Shown here: one piece after another, positions 11,446 through 18,908 of the stretch
Layout of the letters: each line of letters starts with the position of its first letter
How positions within the stretch are numbered: position 1 is the stretch's first letter
NCBI GenBank assembly: GCA_002284875.1
Contig: CP015604.1
Span: 372,001-436,000 of the forward strand
Direction of reading: 5' to 3'
Source: Actinobacteria bacterium IMCC26103
GTDB lineage: Bacteria > Actinomycetota > Actinomycetes > Nanopelagicales > Nanopelagicaceae
Length of the DNA stretch: 64,000 nucleotides
Program-made: the position numbers and the translations under genes
The notes under the pieces: generated by a model
Seen by the model: only the letters and a program-made list of their open reading frames with translations
Database searches by the model: none
What the model was told of the DNA's origin: nothing

Positions 11446-11742
11446 CTATTCGGGGCGAGGAATACGTGGGATATCACCACGCATAATGCGCCGGAACATA
11501 TAAATTGAAACCGCAGCAAAGAATGGCCACTCGAAGGTGTAAACCCAGGCGCGCCAGTGGCCTTCTTTAGCGCGACCAAATTCGTACCAACCAACTAGCA
11601 AGCAAAGCGGAATTACCGTGCAGAGAGTTCCGATAAGGAAATACTTTTGTTTCTGCGTGAGTTCAATAGCTTCTTTAATTATCTCTGGATTGGCATCATC
11701 TCGCACCCATTGTGGCGCTTCAAACTCTTCTTCGTTAGACAC
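11446..11742 (-). CDS. Small two-helix membrane protein next to CtaG
   Basis: A 98-aa protein with a GTG start at 11742 that overlaps the ctaG stop. It has an acidic soluble head (SNEEEFEAPQWVRDD), then two hydrophobic segments (about residues 38-56 and 66-81) and a basic tail RIPRPE. I do not recognise the family. Translational coupling to ctaG and the divergent oxidase operon suggest an accessory role in oxidase assembly or structure; that is inference from position. Confidence 0.7.
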   Translation of the reverse strand: MSNEEEFEAPQWVRDDANPEIIKEAIELTQKQKYFLIGTLCTVIPLCLLVGWYEFGRAKEGHWRAWVYTFEWPFFAAVSIYMFRRIMRGDIPRIPRPE

Positions 11743-12559
11743 CTGAGGCTCGCCGTTCTGCCGCAATTTCCACATCGACTTCAAGAGATTTGCGTTCTTC
11801 TGACTTAATCCAATGATAAACAGCCAGTGCGATCCAGATAGCATCAATGATCATGGCGCCGGACCACATTAGCGATCCACCTCTGCGCTGGTCATCAAGG
11901 GTGTACATATCTTCATATAAAGAACTGCGGGATACATATATAAAGAAGCCCGTTAGCGTTTCAGGGACCATCATTAAGAATAAGGAAATTACAGAAAGTG
12001 CCTGCGAAAGTCTGCGCTTTTCATACTTTCGGTCAAGTAAATTAAAGTAAAAGAGGTATGGCAAAGCAATATAAAGAGGTAGTTCTAGATAGGTATGCGC
12101 CCAAGGATTATCCATTATGAATTTATGTGGCGTAGGTAAATGCACACCAATCATTAGCGCTGCATAAAGGAACCAACTCAATACCGGATGCGTAAATAAC
12201 TTAAATATTCGATTTTTAGGAGAGAAAGTATTAGGCGTGCCAATTACCAATAGCGGACCGCTAATCATCATTAAAGTTATATGTTGAATCATATGAAGGG
12301 AGAAGTAATCCATAGCTCGCGCACCGATAGGGGTAATGACCACAGCGAAGATTGTGGCTATTCCTGAGAGAAAACTGAGACTCTGCTTTTTAGTCACATT
12401 CGCGTTGCGTAAATAGAGAAAAATTAAGAATACGAGCGGGAGAGTAATTTCTGGGGCGATTTGCCACGATGACCACACGCTTAATTGATGGTTATGCATC
12501 TCCATAATTAATTGAGAGTAGACCTGAATTAAAAAAATAAAAAGAGAAATACTCAGCAA
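11735..12559 (-). CDS. ctaG: CtaG-like cytochrome c oxidase assembly protein (caa3_CtaG family)
   Basis: A polytopic membrane protein (about 7 helices) of the Pfam caa3_CtaG type, implicated in copper delivery to the CuB site. Conserved pieces include SLHMIQHITLMMISGPLLVIGTP, PTPHKFIMDNPWAHTYLE and TGFFIYVSRSSLYEDM. The longest reading starts with a TTG at 12559 (274 aa); an ATG at 12505 would give MEMHNHQLSVW, a more family-like N-terminus, so the start is uncertain. It is divergent from the oxidase operon. Confidence 0.85.
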   Translation of the reverse strand: MLSISLFIFLIQVYSQLIMEMHNHQLSVWSSWQIAPEITLPLVFLIFLYLRNANVTKKQSLSFLSGIATIFAVVITPIGARAMDYFSLHMIQHITLMMISGPLLVIGTPNTFSPKNRIFKLFTHPVLSWFLYAALMIGVHLPTPHKFIMDNPWAHTYLELPLYIALPYLFYFNLLDRKYEKRRLSQALSVISLFLMMVPETLTGFFIYVSRSSLYEDMYTLDDQRRGGSLMWSGAMIIDAIWIALAVYHWIKSEERKSLEVDVEIAAERRASGV

Positions 12560-12656: not shown

Positions 12657-13448
12657 ATGGAACGGAAAGTTTTTGGTGCGCTTGGGACTGTAATTATTGG
12701 AATAGCTGTAATCGCTGGCATAGGAACATATGTAGCAGCAGCTAAAAACGATCCGGGTATCACGCAAGCAACCCCAGCTGGTTCATTTACTGCCGAAGAT
12801 GGAAAGAGTTATCCGCAAGTTAAATTGAATTTAAATGTTTATCCAAATAGTGGTTTTGGTGGACACCATGGTGCAGGCGGCGGTGCTCATCCAGATTGGG
12901 TTAGTTATGCACTCGGTGGCCCAAACGGTGAAATATTAGCTGATGCAAAATCGGGAACTAATTTTCAAGTTCCTCCTCACACAGCGGTAACTATTACGGT
13001 TTACCAGTATGACTCTGGTGAAACTCTAAATAACGATTTCTTTGCCTATGTTCGTGGAACCGTTGGTGGAACTGCAAAGTTTGTTAAGAGCTATGACACA
13101 AAAGCTAAAGCAAATGCATCTCCAGAAACTGTTATAACTAATATCCCAGCCGACATGGTTGGGCATACTTTCACTCTCCACGGTATGTCAGATGGCAAAG
13201 ATCAACTATTTGTCAGCGTTCCGCTGATGATGTCTATCGATGAAGAGGTTGGAGCCGCTGAAGAAGGTGCCACTGAGAGTGGATATGTTCAGAATCCAAC
13301 CAAAACCACCTTTACCTTTATTACTGGTGATGAAGGCGAATATGTTTGGAACTGCGAATTCCCATGTGGTGACGGCACAATCGCAAGATTTGGTAATGCA
13401 ATGTCTGCAATGGGTTACATGTCCGGCCACTTTATTGTGAAGGCATAA
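12657..13448 (+). CDS. Membrane-anchored cupredoxin-like protein of the oxidase operon
   Basis: A 263-aa protein with an N-terminal membrane anchor (residues 7-29) and an exported domain. Visible: a Gly/His-rich loop (GGHHGAGGGAH, 69-78), GHTFTLHG with His170 and His175, and a C-terminal segment with Cys233 and Cys237 (NCEFPCG) ending MSGHFIV. The CxxxCG spacing equals the CuA motif, but the His and Met expected 4 and 7 residues later are absent; Met249, 252, 255 and His258 follow instead. It probably binds copper and passes electrons to subunit II. No exact family recognised. First gene of the operon, with a GAGAGG ribosome site. Confidence 0.72.
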   Translation: MERKVFGALGTVIIGIAVIAGIGTYVAAAKNDPGITQATPAGSFTAEDGKSYPQVKLNLNVYPNSGFGGHHGAGGGAHPDWVSYALGGPNGEILADAKSGTNFQVPPHTAVTITVYQYDSGETLNNDFFAYVRGTVGGTAKFVKSYDTKAKANASPETVITNIPADMVGHTFTLHGMSDGKDQLFVSVPLMMSIDEEVGAAEEGATESGYVQNPTKTTFTFITGDEGEYVWNCEFPCGDGTIARFGNAMSAMGYMSGHFIVKA

Positions 13449-13455
13449 GGAGAAA

Positions 13456-14271
13456 ATGATGAGCGATCTTCGTAGCCCAGAGCAAGATTACTTCAAAGGT
13501 AAGTGGTGGAAGCGTAAAGATGTCAAACAAGTCATAGTCCTATGGATTGTTTTCACCGCAATGATTGGATACTTCTCAAGTAAATTCCAAGTAATTGCGA
13601 TGGGTAATCCTGCTTCCGAAACTATGGAAAATGTAATTAATTTGATTACCTTATTTACCTGGGCATCTTCACCAGTCGCAGGTTTTGTGGCAGCTCTTGC
13701 AATTCAAGCGCTATCTCAGCGGCGCCATCATGGTGATAATCCACCACCAGAGGCTGAACACAGCATAAGTGACTCTCCACGTGCAACAGCAACATGGCTA
13801 GTTATATCTGCCTTGCTCTGTTTATTCGCATTGATTGTTGGATTGATTGCACTGCAGAAGGATGATCAAGCCCTATTAGATCGAAATGCGATTCATGTAA
13901 ACGTCACAGGACAGCAGTGGGCTTGGAATTATGACTATCCAGGCAGTACTGGCGTCAGATCAAATGTTTTGCATTTACCGGTTGATCAACCGGTGGTATT
14001 TCATGTAACAAGCAAAGACGTTAAGCACTCATTCTGGGTTGTGCAAATGGGAGTAAAGATCGATGCAAATCCAGGTTACGTGACACAAACGGCCGTTACT
14101 CCCAATAAAATTGGGACCTTCGATATCAGATGCGCTGAACTCTGCGGACTTTTGCATGCATATATGCAAAATAAAGTTATCGTAGAAAGTAAAGCTGATT
14201 ATGAAAAATGGCTAGCTAGCCAACCGGATACTGGACATACAACATGGACTCCGGAAGGAGCTATCGAATAA
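13456..14271 (+). CDS. ctaC: Heme-copper oxidase subunit II (CuA protein)
   Basis: A 271-aa subunit that takes electrons from a cytochrome c or cupredoxin. The CuA ligands are complete: His191, Cys226, Glu228, Cys230, His234 and Met237 (HSFWVVQMG and CAELCGLLHAYM). QQWAWNYDYP is the aromatic entry patch. Three hydrophobic segments (about 24-43, 60-84, 112-133) are visible where the family usually has two. AAGGAG precedes the ATG; a second ATG follows directly. Its TAA shares one base with the subunit I ATG. Confidence 0.95.
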   Translation: MMSDLRSPEQDYFKGKWWKRKDVKQVIVLWIVFTAMIGYFSSKFQVIAMGNPASETMENVINLITLFTWASSPVAGFVAALAIQALSQRRHHGDNPPPEAEHSISDSPRATATWLVISALLCLFALIVGLIALQKDDQALLDRNAIHVNVTGQQWAWNYDYPGSTGVRSNVLHLPVDQPVVFHVTSKDVKHSFWVVQMGVKIDANPGYVTQTAVTPNKIGTFDIRCAELCGLLHAYMQNKVIVESKADYEKWLASQPDTGHTTWTPEGAIE

Positions 14272-16127
14272 TGACTACTTTCGCAACCAAGAACGAGAAG
14301 AAAGCACTGATTGAAAGGTTAAATGTTTTTACTGCATTTGCTCTTGGCACAATCGCAGCAATTGTTGTATGGCGACTTTCGCTAGCTTTCTTGCCTGCTG
14401 ATTCTGAATCGGCGCCACTATTTACCCGCGAAGATAAAATCACGCTTCTTTCAATGATCGCGTGGTTCATCGGCTTCATGACTGGAATTGGCGCACTTAT
14501 CGCTCCATTTAGATGGGTACAAGGAAAAGATTTGACCCATGAAGAAAATATGTTTTATGCCGGAAAAGATTTGGGCATCAAACGATATTTCAGATATACA
14601 ACAGACCACAAAGTCGTTGGAATCCAGTACCTAGTTATAACTATGGTTATTTTCGGTATTGGCGGAATTCTTGCCATGCTTATTAGAACAAATCTAGGTA
14701 CTCCAGAAGGTGGTTGGATTCATCCGCAGGCATATAACTCGATTGTTGGTACACACGGAATCATCATGATTGTTGGAACAATCATCATGGTCACCGGACC
14801 ATTTGGTAACTACATAATGCCGATCATGATCGGTGCTCGAGATATGGCATTCCCTCGCCTTAACGCACTTAGCTTTTGGCTAATCGTCGCAGCAGCTATT
14901 CCACTTATCTGGGCGCAATTTATTGGTGGAATCTCAACAGGTTGGTCGGCGTACAACCCACTAGCTGGTCAAGCTCCGCTGGGCATGAATGGTTACATAA
15001 TGTTTATCTGTATCTTTGCAATTTCAACAATGGTTGCTGGTGCAAATATCACAACCACTGTCGTACGCATGCGTGCGCGAGGTATGACCTGGAACCGTAC
15101 GCCGATCTTTATCTATGGCGTCGTGGCATCAGTTGCGCTTGCACTTCCGGCATTCCCAGTATTTTTCTTATCCCAAGTTATGTCCGGTATGGATAGAGCG
15201 CTCGGAACTTCCTTCTACAACACAGCGCTCGGCGGCAGCGGTTGGCTCTATGAAAATCTTTTCTGGATCATGGGCCATCCTGAAGTTTATGTAATTTTGA
15301 TTCCCGCAGTTGCAGCTCTAATGGAGATGGCTCCAGTGTTTACGCGACGTCCACTCTTTAGTTTTAACGTTGCAGTAATGGGTATCGCTGGAATTTCTGG
15401 CCTTTCAGTACTTGTTTGGGCACACCATATGTATATGAGTGGATGGGCTCCATTGCTAAGCGCACCATTTATGTTGACTACCGAATTGATTTCCATTCCA
15501 ACCGGAATGCTCTTCTTAGTTCTAGTTGGAACCCTGTGGCGCGGCAGACTTTGGATGACCGTTCCTACGCTTTCAATCTTTGCGCTGCTATGGAATTTCA
15601 TGATCGGCGGAATTACTGGAATTTATCTATCTGATGTTCCAGCAGATGCCTTCTTACACGGCTCAATGTTTGTGACAGCACATTTCCATTACACGTTAAT
15701 GGGTGCAGGACTTACGGGAGCTATCGCCGCCTTAATTTATTGGTTCCCAAAGATGACCGGAAAGATGATTAATAAGCGTCTATCTTGGATCGCTTTTTGG
15801 CTTACTCAAATCGGTTTCAACGTGGCATTTATGGGCATGTTCTTCGTGGGCTTACAAGGTCAGCCTCGTCGCGTAGAAGCTTATGCTGAGATTTTTAACA
15901 AGGGTAACCTGATCACGACAATAGGTGCCTACACAATCATGATCGGAATGCTGATACTTCTGTATGCAGTAATTGATTCATGGCGCAGTGGAGTTAACGC
16001 TCCAATGAATCCATGGCAAGCCAAGACTCTGGAATGGACTGTTGCTAATCCTGTTCCTCTAGAAAATTTTGAGGTGTTACCAATTGTTACATCGGATGCG
16101 TATGGATATGGAAAGGCTAAATCATGA
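14271..16127 (+). CDS. ctaD: Heme-copper oxidase subunit I, A-type with altered K-channel
   Basis: Catalytic membrane subunit, 618 aa. Present: low-spin heme ligands His162 and His473, high-spin heme His471, CuB ligands His336, His385 and His386, cross-link Tyr340 (GHPEVY), D-channel Asn180, Asp191, Asn198 and Glu338, and Arg533-Arg534. Absent: the K-channel Lys (Leu414 in PTGML) and Ser (Met351), and the Mg-site Asp (Gly464 after His463). About 90 residues with two extra helices precede the usual TTDHK start. I start at 14271 behind GGAAGGAG rather than at 14244. Probably an oxygen reductase; an NO-reducing role cannot be excluded. Confidence 0.95.
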   Translation: MTTFATKNEKKALIERLNVFTAFALGTIAAIVVWRLSLAFLPADSESAPLFTREDKITLLSMIAWFIGFMTGIGALIAPFRWVQGKDLTHEENMFYAGKDLGIKRYFRYTTDHKVVGIQYLVITMVIFGIGGILAMLIRTNLGTPEGGWIHPQAYNSIVGTHGIIMIVGTIIMVTGPFGNYIMPIMIGARDMAFPRLNALSFWLIVAAAIPLIWAQFIGGISTGWSAYNPLAGQAPLGMNGYIMFICIFAISTMVAGANITTTVVRMRARGMTWNRTPIFIYGVVASVALALPAFPVFFLSQVMSGMDRALGTSFYNTALGGSGWLYENLFWIMGHPEVYVILIPAVAALMEMAPVFTRRPLFSFNVAVMGIAGISGLSVLVWAHHMYMSGWAPLLSAPFMLTTELISIPTGMLFLVLVGTLWRGRLWMTVPTLSIFALLWNFMIGGITGIYLSDVPADAFLHGSMFVTAHFHYTLMGAGLTGAIAALIYWFPKMTGKMINKRLSWIAFWLTQIGFNVAFMGMFFVGLQGQPRRVEAYAEIFNKGNLITTIGAYTIMIGMLILLYAVIDSWRSGVNAPMNPWQAKTLEWTVANPVPLENFEVLPIVTSDAYGYGKAKS

Positions 16128-16732
16128 GTTTAGATACACATGCAAACCCTCATCACGAACACCCTGATGTAGTCGGTAGCCGTAACCGCTTAGGAGTAAT
16201 TCTCATTCTGGTCGCAGATATCGCTTTTGCGCTCAGCGTTCTCTTCGTCTTCTTCTACCTAAAAGGTCAGAATGTAAACGATATGTGGTTACCAAAAGCA
16301 ACAGAAGATACTCCGGCGATTGTTCCACTTTCCAGTATGAGTTCTTGGAATGTGACAGCGATTGCTGCCTTCGGATTAATTGCTCACCAATTCGGTTTGC
16401 GCGGGGTTCGTGCGGCTAATCAAACCCAGTTAAAACTCGGTGGTTTAGTTGCACTTATCGCAGCAGTAGTAGCAACTGTCTATCAAAATATGCAGATCGC
16501 AAATGCGCCTTTCACTTTTTACTCTGGCGCATACGCATCTTGTTATTACTTGATAACGATTCTAAATATGGTGCACTTAATTCTGACCGTATTTATCGCA
16601 CTCGGTAACTGGAACCGCTCCAGACTTGGAATCTATGCGCACGATCATTGGCATGTAGATATCGTCAATGTCTGGTGGGTATGGATGACTGTGTCATCAT
16701 TGCTGGGTGCATTCGCCCTCTCCTTCGCCTAA
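16124..16732 (+). CDS. ctaE: Heme-copper oxidase subunit III
   Basis: A 202-aa membrane subunit with five visible hydrophobic segments, matching CtaE-type subunit III. Conserved hallmarks are FVFFYLKG early and the C-terminal HDHWHVDIVNVWWVWMTV, close to the family's H-x-D-x-VW ending. Subunit III protects the D-channel from turnover damage, which fits the intact D-channel here. It overlaps subunit I by 4 bp. There is no separate subunit IV gene. Confidence 0.93.
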   Translation: MSLDTHANPHHEHPDVVGSRNRLGVILILVADIAFALSVLFVFFYLKGQNVNDMWLPKATEDTPAIVPLSSMSSWNVTAIAAFGLIAHQFGLRGVRAANQTQLKLGGLVALIAAVVATVYQNMQIANAPFTFYSGAYASCYYLITILNMVHLILTVFIALGNWNRSRLGIYAHDHWHVDIVNVWWVWMTVSSLLGAFALSFA

Positions 16733-17612
16733 AAATAGCTGGGTAGTTCCTTATCTAGCCCTGGGCGCTGTTTGGGGATGCTCCTTTATCTTCATCAAGC
16801 TTGGCCTTGATTTCCTAACGCCATTTGGAGTCGCCTTCGGTCGATGTGCTCTAGGTGCAATGACGTTATTGGCTTGGGCGAAATATAAGAAAATTTCACT
16901 TCCAAAATCAGGAAAGTTATGGGCCCATCTCTGGGTGGTATCACTCATGCTCAATGTAATTCCGGGCGTACTTTTTGCACTCGCCGAAACCGAAGTAACT
17001 TCAATCTTGGCTGGAATCATTAACGCAGTAACACCCCTAATGACTCTGATCGCAATCATGGTCGTCACCCGCGATGAGAAGCCAAAGTTTTATCAAGTTC
17101 TTGGTATTGGTATCGGTTTTATTGGCGTATTAACCGTGCTTGGCGCATGGCAAGGCCTTGGCGACAATCCGCTGTGGGCGATTCTCGTGTTACTAGCGGC
17201 AGTAACTTGTTATGGATTTTCCTTTCCGTACTCCCGTCGCTTTGTTATCCCACATAAGTTGCCATCAGAATCAATTGCGGCTGCCCAAGTTACAACGGGT
17301 GCGCTAACTCTCCTCCCATTCTTCTTATTCGATGGGATAGCAAGAGATGAATATCGACCAGGTCCCGTGTTAGCAATGTTGGCGTTGGGAATTTTTGGTA
17401 GCGGCTTTGCCTATATCTGGAACTTTAAGATTATGGCGATCGCAGGAAGTGCAATAGCAAGTAGCGTTACTTATATAACTCCAATAGTTGCGGTAATTGT
17501 TGGAGTTGTATTTCTGCAGGAGAGCCTATTTTGGTATGAACCTGTTGGTGCGTTAATCGTTTTATTAGGCGCAGCTATTGGACAAAATCGAATAAAGCTA
17601 AGTAAGAACTAA
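16707..17612 (+). CDS. EamA-family (DMT superfamily) transporter
   Basis: A 301-aa inner-membrane protein with ten hydrophobic segments in two EamA repeats; ALGAVWGCSFIFIKLGL opens the first and GFGSGF-like GIFGSGFAYIWNFKIM lies in the second. The family exports metabolites or amino acids; the substrate is not readable. The GTG start at 16707 lies inside subunit III, so it is probably read through from the oxidase operon without a functional link. Its stop overlaps the convergent Ni/Co permease stop by 4 bp. Confidence 0.88.
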   Translation: MHSPSPSPKNSWVVPYLALGAVWGCSFIFIKLGLDFLTPFGVAFGRCALGAMTLLAWAKYKKISLPKSGKLWAHLWVVSLMLNVIPGVLFALAETEVTSILAGIINAVTPLMTLIAIMVVTRDEKPKFYQVLGIGIGFIGVLTVLGAWQGLGDNPLWAILVLLAAVTCYGFSFPYSRRFVIPHKLPSESIAAAQVTTGALTLLPFFLFDGIARDEYRPGPVLAMLALGIFGSGFAYIWNFKIMAIAGSAIASSVTYITPIVAVIVGVVFLQESLFWYEPVGALIVLLGAAIGQNRIKLSKN

Positions 17613-18796
17613 TCGATCTTCCAACCTTCGTTAATAGGACCTAAATCAACTCCCGCCGCAGCATGATTGCTAACTTCACCACGTTCAAGCTGCGCCGCAT
17701 GAGCGGTGTTATGCCAACGCTCTTCGATCTTGCCAAAGCGCCAGAGCAATAAAGCTACGCTCCAAACTACGGCGAATGCCCCAACTATGAAGTACCCGGC
17801 GCTATTTAGATTAAATGCAAGTGCAAAATCCCAGAAACCACCTGAAAGATTTAACTGATTGGCTAGTACTTGGCAGATTTCCAGGCCACCAACATAGAGC
17901 GCCACCGCAACTGATAATCCAGTAATAATGATGTTGTAGTAAACCTTACGGACTGGTTTAGAAAATGCCCAACCATAGGCAAAGTTCATAAATGAACCAT
18001 CGATTGTGTCTAGCAAACTCATTCCACCAGCGAAGAATAGCGGTAGCGAAATAATTGCCCACCACGGCAGGCCTGCAATTACTGATGAACCAGCCAAAAC
18101 CAATAAACCAATTTCAGTTGCAGTATCAAAGCCAAGCCCGAAGAGAATTCCAAGCGGGTACATCTTCCAGCTCTTATCGATACGACGGGCGATTGGGCCG
18201 AAGAAACGCATCAATAATCCACGAGAGTTTAAATGTTTTTCTAACTCTTCTTCGTTATATAAACCTTTGCGCATTTTTAGAAATACGCCAACTATAGAAA
18301 CCAAGATCATCAAGTTAAGGATGGCAATTAACATTAAGAAAGTGCCAGAAACTGTCGTTCCGACAAGTCCGGTGTAATGGTGCAGGGTTGAATCTTCATC
18401 TTTTAGTTGCGAGCCAAGGGCTTTAATTCCAAAGTTCAAGAGAATTGCTAAAGCGGCAACAACTGATGAATGTCCGAGTGAGAAGAAGAAGCCAACTGCC
18501 AAAGGACGCTGTCCTTCAGACATTAACTTTCGCGTTGTGTTATCGATTGCGCTGATGTGATCGGCATCGAAGGCATGGCGCATTCCTAAGGTGTATGCCA
18601 GCGCTGCAGTGCCCCAACCGAATAAAGTTCCATCGGCTAGCTCGTAATTTCCGTTAGTTGCTTGCCACATCAATAAGGCGCCAGCGATATGTAAGAAGGC
18701 GATAAAGCCGAACATCGCCGCCATCCGGCGCCACTCATCCCGTGTTAGGCGCTCGCGCAGGGGAATGCGAGGTGCTTCCTTAACAATCGTGTTCAT
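17609..18796 (-). CDS. HoxN/NixA-type nickel/cobalt permease
   Basis: A 395-aa NiCoT-family secondary transporter. The signature RHAFDADHISAIDN carries the metal-binding HX4DH in helix II; LGHSSVV and LGFDTATEIGLL are the other family motifs. I place the start at the ATG at 18796, which has an AGGAG site. Ni versus Co cannot be told from sequence, but a Nur-type box upstream favours nickel. No nickel enzyme is in the window; a Ni superoxide dismutase or urease elsewhere would be the likely client. Confidence 0.95.
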   Translation of the reverse strand: MNTIVKEAPRIPLRERLTRDEWRRMAAMFGFIAFLHIAGALLMWQATNGNYELADGTLFGWGTAALAYTLGMRHAFDADHISAIDNTTRKLMSEGQRPLAVGFFFSLGHSSVVAALAILLNFGIKALGSQLKDEDSTLHHYTGLVGTTVSGTFLMLIAILNLMILVSIVGVFLKMRKGLYNEEELEKHLNSRGLLMRFFGPIARRIDKSWKMYPLGILFGLGFDTATEIGLLVLAGSSVIAGLPWWAIISLPLFFAGGMSLLDTIDGSFMNFAYGWAFSKPVRKVYYNIIITGLSVAVALYVGGLEICQVLANQLNLSGGFWDFALAFNLNSAGYFIVGAFAVVWSVALLLWRFGKIEERWHNTAHAAQLERGEVSNHAAAGVDLGPINEGWKID

Positions 18797-18822
18797 TGGG
18801 CTCCTGATGGGGGTAGGCCTAG

Positions 18823-18839
18823 ATGCAAATGACTTGCAA
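18823..18839 (-). promoter_or_regulatory. Nur-type nickel-responsive operator
   Basis: The sequence is ATGCAA-N5-TTGCAA, an inverted repeat with TGCAA/TTGCA arms that matches the Streptomyces Nur box as I remember it (tTGCaa-N5-ttGCAA) at 11 of 12 positions. It lies 26 bp upstream of the permease ATG and between plausible minus-strand -35 TTGCCT and -10 CATCTA elements, a repressor geometry. Confidence 0.6.
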
Positions 18840-18908
18840 GAAGGCAAGGGTAAGCCAGGCTAGTTGAGCCTGTCCACTTGAAATCGGCCACCTATCCTTT
18901 ACTTACTC

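Follow-up and report, generated by a model that had tools for sequence, protein, structure and literature searches.

The genome of Actinobacteria bacterium IMCC26103 is a single contig of 1.46 Mb, and its relatives among the searched genomes are mainly freshwater actinobacteria, several of them named as Nanopelagicales or Nanopelagicaceae (acI). The stretch of DNA analyzed here (the window, 64,000 nucleotides, with positions counted from its first letter) carries a gene cluster for a family-A heme-copper oxidase whose subunit I lacks the K-channel lysine (Table 1). ctaG and a small protein gene are read leftward, and the genes for a cupredoxin, subunit II (coxB), subunit I (coxA), and subunit III (coxC) rightward. 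Start and stop codons overlap at both ends of coxA, upstream with coxB (TAATG) and downstream with coxC (ATGA). The order cupredoxin–coxB–coxA–coxC, together with ctaG, is kept among relatives. Next to coxC lie two genes that, from reading the sequence, we take to encode an EamA-like transporter (16707-17612, + strand) and a nickel/cobalt-transporter-like membrane protein (17609-18847, - strand); both (16707-18847) still adjoin the oxidase cluster in the closest relatives.

Table 1. Genes of the oxidase cluster and codons of the residues discussed in the text.
Feature	Position in the window	Strand	Basis or remark
Small protein adjoining ctaG, no Pfam family	11446..11847	-	Kept in most near relatives
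caa3-type CtaG assembly factor, divergently transcribed, cluster-conserved	11735..12559	-	Profile match and gene order
Membrane-anchored cupredoxin, no Pfam family	12657..13448	+	Conserved residues and model fold
Subunit II, CuA ligands intact, without the canonical K-channel-entrance Glu	13456..14271	+	Profile matches and alignment
Subunit I (coxA/ctaD-like), family-A oxidase without K-channel	14271..16127	+	Open frame from ATG, 618 aa
Tyr340 codon, cross-link tyrosine kept (P. denitrificans Tyr280)	15288..15290	+	Alignment
Met351 codon, at the K-channel Ser position (Ser291)	15321..15323	+	Alignment; 11 residues past Tyr340
Glu405 codon, helix VIII, clade-invariant	15483..15485	+	Never acidic in 18 lysine-bearing enzymes
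Ser408 codon, invariant companion of Glu405	15492..15494	+	Mostly Ala or Gly where the lysine is kept
Leu414 codon, at the K-channel Lys position (P. denitrificans Lys354)	15510..15512	+	Alignment, PTGML vs PTGIK/PTGVK
Asp455 codon (SDVP), clade-invariant	15633..15635	+	Most frequent residues in the lysine-bearing enzymes do not include Asp
Subunit III (coxC)	16124..16732	+	Profile match

Oxidases of the Genome and of the Order

IMCC26103 also encodes a canonical aa3 subunit I with the motif PTGVK (L081) and a cytochrome bd subunit. A role of the lysine-less enzyme as the sole oxidase of the cell was therefore rejected, and the enzyme is regarded as accessory because these two coexist with it. 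Of 151 genomes of the order, about 64 carry the lysine-less gene, always along with one or more other subunit I matches, and the enzyme is thus an accessory oxidase with a patchy distribution. Two order-mates (G434 and G528) have two copies of the lysine-less subunit I each, those of G528 lying approximately 4 kb apart on one contig.

Subunit I and its Proton Channels

Subunit I matches the COX1 family of Pfam (PF00115, 398 bits). The CtaD model TIGR02891 gives 520 bits, which is under its cut-off of 671, and the SoxB model 59 bits; this difference and the presence of a D-channel led to the rejection of a B- or C-type assignment. No match to ccoN was found in the IMCC26103 genome. In the AlphaFold2 model (mean pLDDT 89), two additional hydrophobic helices (residues 19-40 and 53-73) precede the usual twelve. 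The model superposes on the aa3 oxidase of R. sphaeroides with a Z of 53 and an rmsd of 1.2 Å over 492-498 residues, so that an error in the register, which was set by this superposition and by alignment to solved A-family subunits I, is unlikely.

The K-channel of family A (A1) is described by the list Lys354, Thr351, Ser291, and Tyr280 (PMC3084760). From this list, only Tyr340 and Thr411 are kept in the IMCC26103 subunit, the lysine and the serine being gone; judged strictly by these residues, it is a divergent variant and not a regular A1 enzyme. Thr411 itself gives way to Val or Phe in some members of the clade described below. A preliminary description of this DNA, made by eye, had read PTGIK as changed to PTGML, with Leu414 in place of the lysine, and had placed Met351 at the serine 11 residues after the cross-link tyrosine. 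Alignment and superposition bear out the first reading, and the second is also correct, although the serine is the weaker marker: Thermus caa3 (2yev) keeps the lysine yet has Ala there. The canonical oxidase of IMCC26103 has Thr at this position. All the residues that had been called intact were found in the alignment, namely Asn180, Asp191, Asn198, and Glu338 (GHPEVY) of the D-channel, the histidine ligands of heme a, heme a3, and CuB (His162, His336, His385/386, His471, and His473), and Tyr340.

Conservation and Phylogeny of the Lysine Loss

The loss extends to all related loci that were compared (55-97% identity): position 414 is Leu or Ile in 80 of 80, never Lys, and at position 351 the same 80/80 show Met, Leu, Phe, or Ile. 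Tyr340 is kept in 82 of the 82 aligned sequences. The lysine and the serine are also absent in further relatives elsewhere in the phylum. The preliminary description had named two observations that would speak against it, close homologs with the lysine and a lysine one helical turn away. There are no such homologs among the 80 loci, and a shifted lysine was rejected, since across 42 clade members neither helix VI nor the part of helix VIII around 414 contains a Lys or Arg. Basic residues in helix VIII are confined to its ends, at 397 (5 of the 42 members) and 424 (38 members), which are 17 and 10 residues from 414 and are basic in many lysine-bearing enzymes too.

The subunit I gene is under strong purifying selection, with dN/dS values of 0.026-0.067 against six relatives. 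These values, together with the conservation in relatives, rule out a decayed gene, and the absence of the lysine in all 80 loci makes the trait a product neither of chance nor of decay. The loss is old and selected, and the preliminary description had likewise taken it for selected rather than decayed.

In a tree built with the trait columns removed, the 42 actinobacterial lysine-less sequences group together with an SH-aLRT support of 100, and their neighbors are A2-like enzymes that have the lysine; the separate clade sharing the K-channel loss, which had been anticipated, is therefore present. A sister group within the Actinomycetota (L091, L092, L093, L095, and L097) lacks the lysine as well, and in it the D-channel Asp is changed to Arg or Lys and Asn198 to Glu, Asn180 is kept, and WQHH replaces WAHH. 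Both canonical channels are thus disrupted in this group, which keeps Glu405 and the tyrosine. Within the clade, one member from a metagenome-assembled genome (L059, palsa_747 MAG) has Gly in place of the D-channel Asp191 on top of the lysine loss.

Outside the Actinomycetota, lysine-less family-A subunits I were sampled from plasmids, four of them (L125, L131, L132, and L133) from plasmids of Dinoroseobacter, Sphingobium, Novosphingobium, and Sulfitobacter, and another (L128) from a Halorussus plasmid. These sequences have Gln or Met at the lysine position, and two alphaproteobacterial ones (L132 and L133) combine Gln there with Glu at position 405. A single loss for all sampled lysine-less sequences was rejected by the AU test (p = 0.006), a value to be read with the long branches of the tree in mind and for a constrained group that was named after the first tree had been seen. 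The rejection of this joint grouping makes more than one loss of the K-channel lysine probable within the sample.

Subunit II and the Cupredoxin

In A-family oxidases a glutamate of subunit II stands at the mouth of the K-channel, which we take to be Glu78 in P. denitrificans and Glu101 in R. sphaeroides. This residue is present in 7/7 lysine-bearing enzymes (xEIVWT, VEIAYT), a count that leaves out the P. denitrificans motif fragment, while the position is non-acidic in all 23 lysine-less subunits II compared. The CuA ligands are intact in both sets alike. As the subunit II glutamate has been lost along with the lysine and the serine, the K-channel is dismantled from mouth to end, and the case for its loss is stronger than the preliminary description could know.

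The cupredoxin matched no Pfam family. In its model (mean pLDDT 81), a helix at the N-terminus is followed by a cupredoxin fold, to which rusticyanin and auracyanin come nearest. The conserved residues are His170, Cys233-x3-Cys237, Met249, and Met255, a pattern that is CuA-like (C-x3-C, one His) but lacks the second His. The gene is present both with clusters of the IMCC26103 type and with those of the type with an altered D-channel, and its product most likely donates electrons or serves as a second copper subunit.

Glu405, Ser408, and Asp455

The comparison set for the 42 clade members was 18 subunits I that keep the lysine, drawn from Actinomycetota, Cyanobacteria, Pseudomonadota, Bacillota, and Haloarchaea. 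Glu405 and Asp455 emerged as the clade-specific ionisable invariants, and among the acidic positions of helices VI–VIII only 405 parts the two sets so cleanly. In the wider sample, 44 lysine-less sequences have the glutamate, the 18 lysine-bearing ones do not, and three lysine-less outsiders (L125, L128, and L131) are also without it. This mutual exclusion comes mostly from one clade and from one to three independently sampled losses of the lysine, so the correlation is suggestive only. It suggests Glu405 as a candidate residue for a replacement proton path. An origin of this glutamate in the C-family was considered and rejected, since a Glu at this position is missing from all five C-like sequences of Actinomycetota that were compared. 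Asp455 is probably located in a loop on the outer side of the membrane, judging from the known topology.

The Question of Nitric Oxide Reduction

The preliminary description had raised the possibility of a different chemistry, such as NO reduction. An eNOR-like or CuA-NOR-like enzyme, derived from an A-type oxidase and used for NO respiration or detoxification, would be consistent with the lost K-channel, with the extra cupredoxin subunit, and with Glu405, which lies in helix VIII at a depth like that of the NOR glutamate. In eNOR, Gln replaces the cross-link tyrosine (PMC8756737), which is Tyr340 in every aligned member of the present family. The motifs of NO reductases are H-X-Arom-X-E and HHX-Arom-Arom-X17-E (PMC3084760), and Glu280 in helix VIII of cNOR is critical for activity (PMC3431322). 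The cNOR/qNOR motifs are absent here, and subunit I has HPEVY and HHMYM-X15-E. The intact D-channel also argues against NO reduction, as does the lack of any match over the model cut-off to the copper nitrite reductase gene nirK in IMCC26103 and 150 order-mates.

The alignment of helix VIII deserves separate mention. hhalign pairs Glu405 with the NOR glutamate across a two-residue gap, with a weak score and a NOR profile of three sequences. Both families conserve a Ser/Thr six residues before a Pro in this helix, and an alignment anchored on these residues puts the NOR glutamate two positions after Glu405. Owing to the weak score, the small profile, and the difference in register, the identity of the two glutamates was rejected and is not claimed; their likeness is a lead. 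By active-site criteria, subunit I is not a NOR, and an NO reductase at this locus is highly improbable. The earlier suggestion thus fails on the retained tyrosine and on the absence of the eNOR Gln, of the NOR Glu signatures, and of nirK over the cut-off; in addition, K-channel loss in family A has already been published (PMC8239418). Nothing shows a function other than O2 reduction for the lysine-less enzyme.

Proton Supply Without a K-Channel

In A-family oxidases, the K-channel counts as essential because it reprotonates the active-site tyrosine. Lysine mutants of the A-family are nearly inactive, and for this reason function without the lysine needs a real substitute. It had been stated that the enzyme must either load protons by another path or perform a different chemistry; the first of these options holds up, with Glu405 as a candidate, and NO reduction does not.

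The best reading, which we consider probable, is that of an accessory O2-reducing family-A (A1-like) oxidase in which all protons arrive via the D-channel, via a path that ends at Glu405, or via both. That O2 is the substrate, where the electrons come from, and what Glu405 does are inferred. Electrons would most likely enter via the membrane-anchored cupredoxin and/or the CuA of subunit II, and the intact D-channel would supply protons for the chemistry and for pumping. The protons that the K-channel normally brings to the active-site tyrosine may come from the D-channel too, or from a short path ending at Glu405/Ser408, in which Glu405 with Ser408 would be the last proton-holding group.

A simpler account, to which we give clearly less weight, is an O2 reductase that takes all its protons via the D-channel, with slower turnover or less pumping, and in which Glu405 is structural, for instance a contact between helices VII and VIII. 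The full retention of the D-channel in IMCC26103 and most of the clade agrees with this, as does the fact that some plasmid-borne lysine-less enzymes lack Glu405; moreover, work cited in PMC8079940 indicates that lysine mutants still carry out the first step of reduction. However, to keep a Glu unchanged within a hydrophobic helix is costly if its role is only structural, and the sister group keeps Glu405 even though its D-channel Asp is Arg or Lys and one Asn is Glu. A third route would deliver the protons for the tyrosine site from the outer side, via the Asp455 loop and Glu405. These are the two clade-specific acidic invariants, and cNOR, with its critical helix-VIII glutamate, draws protons from the periplasm (PMC3431322). 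Such a route would nonetheless squander proton-motive force in a cell with a small genome and presumably a meager energy supply, and it seems very doubtful.

Relation to Known Enzymes and Significance

Compared with canonical A1 enzymes (the aa3 oxidases of P. denitrificans and R. sphaeroides, and the actinobacterial bcc-aa3 CtaD), the IMCC26103 oxidase has the same fold, heme/CuB ligands, cross-link Tyr, D-channel with Glu338, CuA-containing subunit II, and subunit III. It differs by lacking the K-channel Lys/Ser and the entrance Glu of subunit II, and by adding the invariant Glu405/Ser408/Asp455, two N-terminal helices, and the cupredoxin subunit. Thermus caa3 and other A2 oxidases (SHPAVY) are relevant because the lysine-bearing neighbors closest in the tree are of an A2-like kind and share an N-terminal extension; unlike the IMCC26103 enzyme, with its GHPEVY, the A2 oxidases keep the Lys (and the subunit II Glu where checked) and have no Glu405, although lysine-less SHPAVY members also exist. 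eNOR, cNOR, and qNOR share the heme-copper fold, NORs also having a helix-VIII glutamate at a similar depth, but NOR and eNOR lack the tyrosine, the NOR motifs are missing from the IMCC26103 enzyme, and nirK was not found over the cut-off in the 151 genomes.

Degli Esposti et al. (PMC8239418) have described family-A enzymes that lost the K-channel repeatedly and, in lineages other than the present one, a "2TM" COX1 with two additional helices at the N-terminus, caa3-type ctaG, and membrane-bound cupredoxins. The "2TM" group has in common with the present cluster the two helices, the caa3-type ctaG, the cupredoxins, and changed K-channel residues; the paper centers on archaea and iron-oxidisers that are acidophilic, and the main-text sections consulted do not treat the freshwater actinobacterial clade. 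A literature search of incomplete coverage found no published account of the clade, of the matching loss in subunit II, or of Glu405. K-channel loss in family A is hence known, and the actinobacterial clade, the loss of the subunit II Glu, and Glu405 are apparently new. A bolder proposal, which can be put forward only tentatively, is that Glu405 and Ser408 form a new proton-delivery element that takes over from the K-channel in a large family-A subfamily not described before, together with a dedicated CuA-like cupredoxin, and that in one sub-group this element would sustain catalysis even with a rewired D-channel (Asp to Arg/Lys, Asn to Glu).

From the point of view of annotation, a missing lysine alone is no ground for naming such genes as NO reductases. 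A conserved natural enzyme family in lake bacteria, without the K-channel and with the rest of the enzyme kept, is a ready test of the minimal proton inputs of aa3-type oxidases, and the same family could show which residue substitutes for the K-channel.
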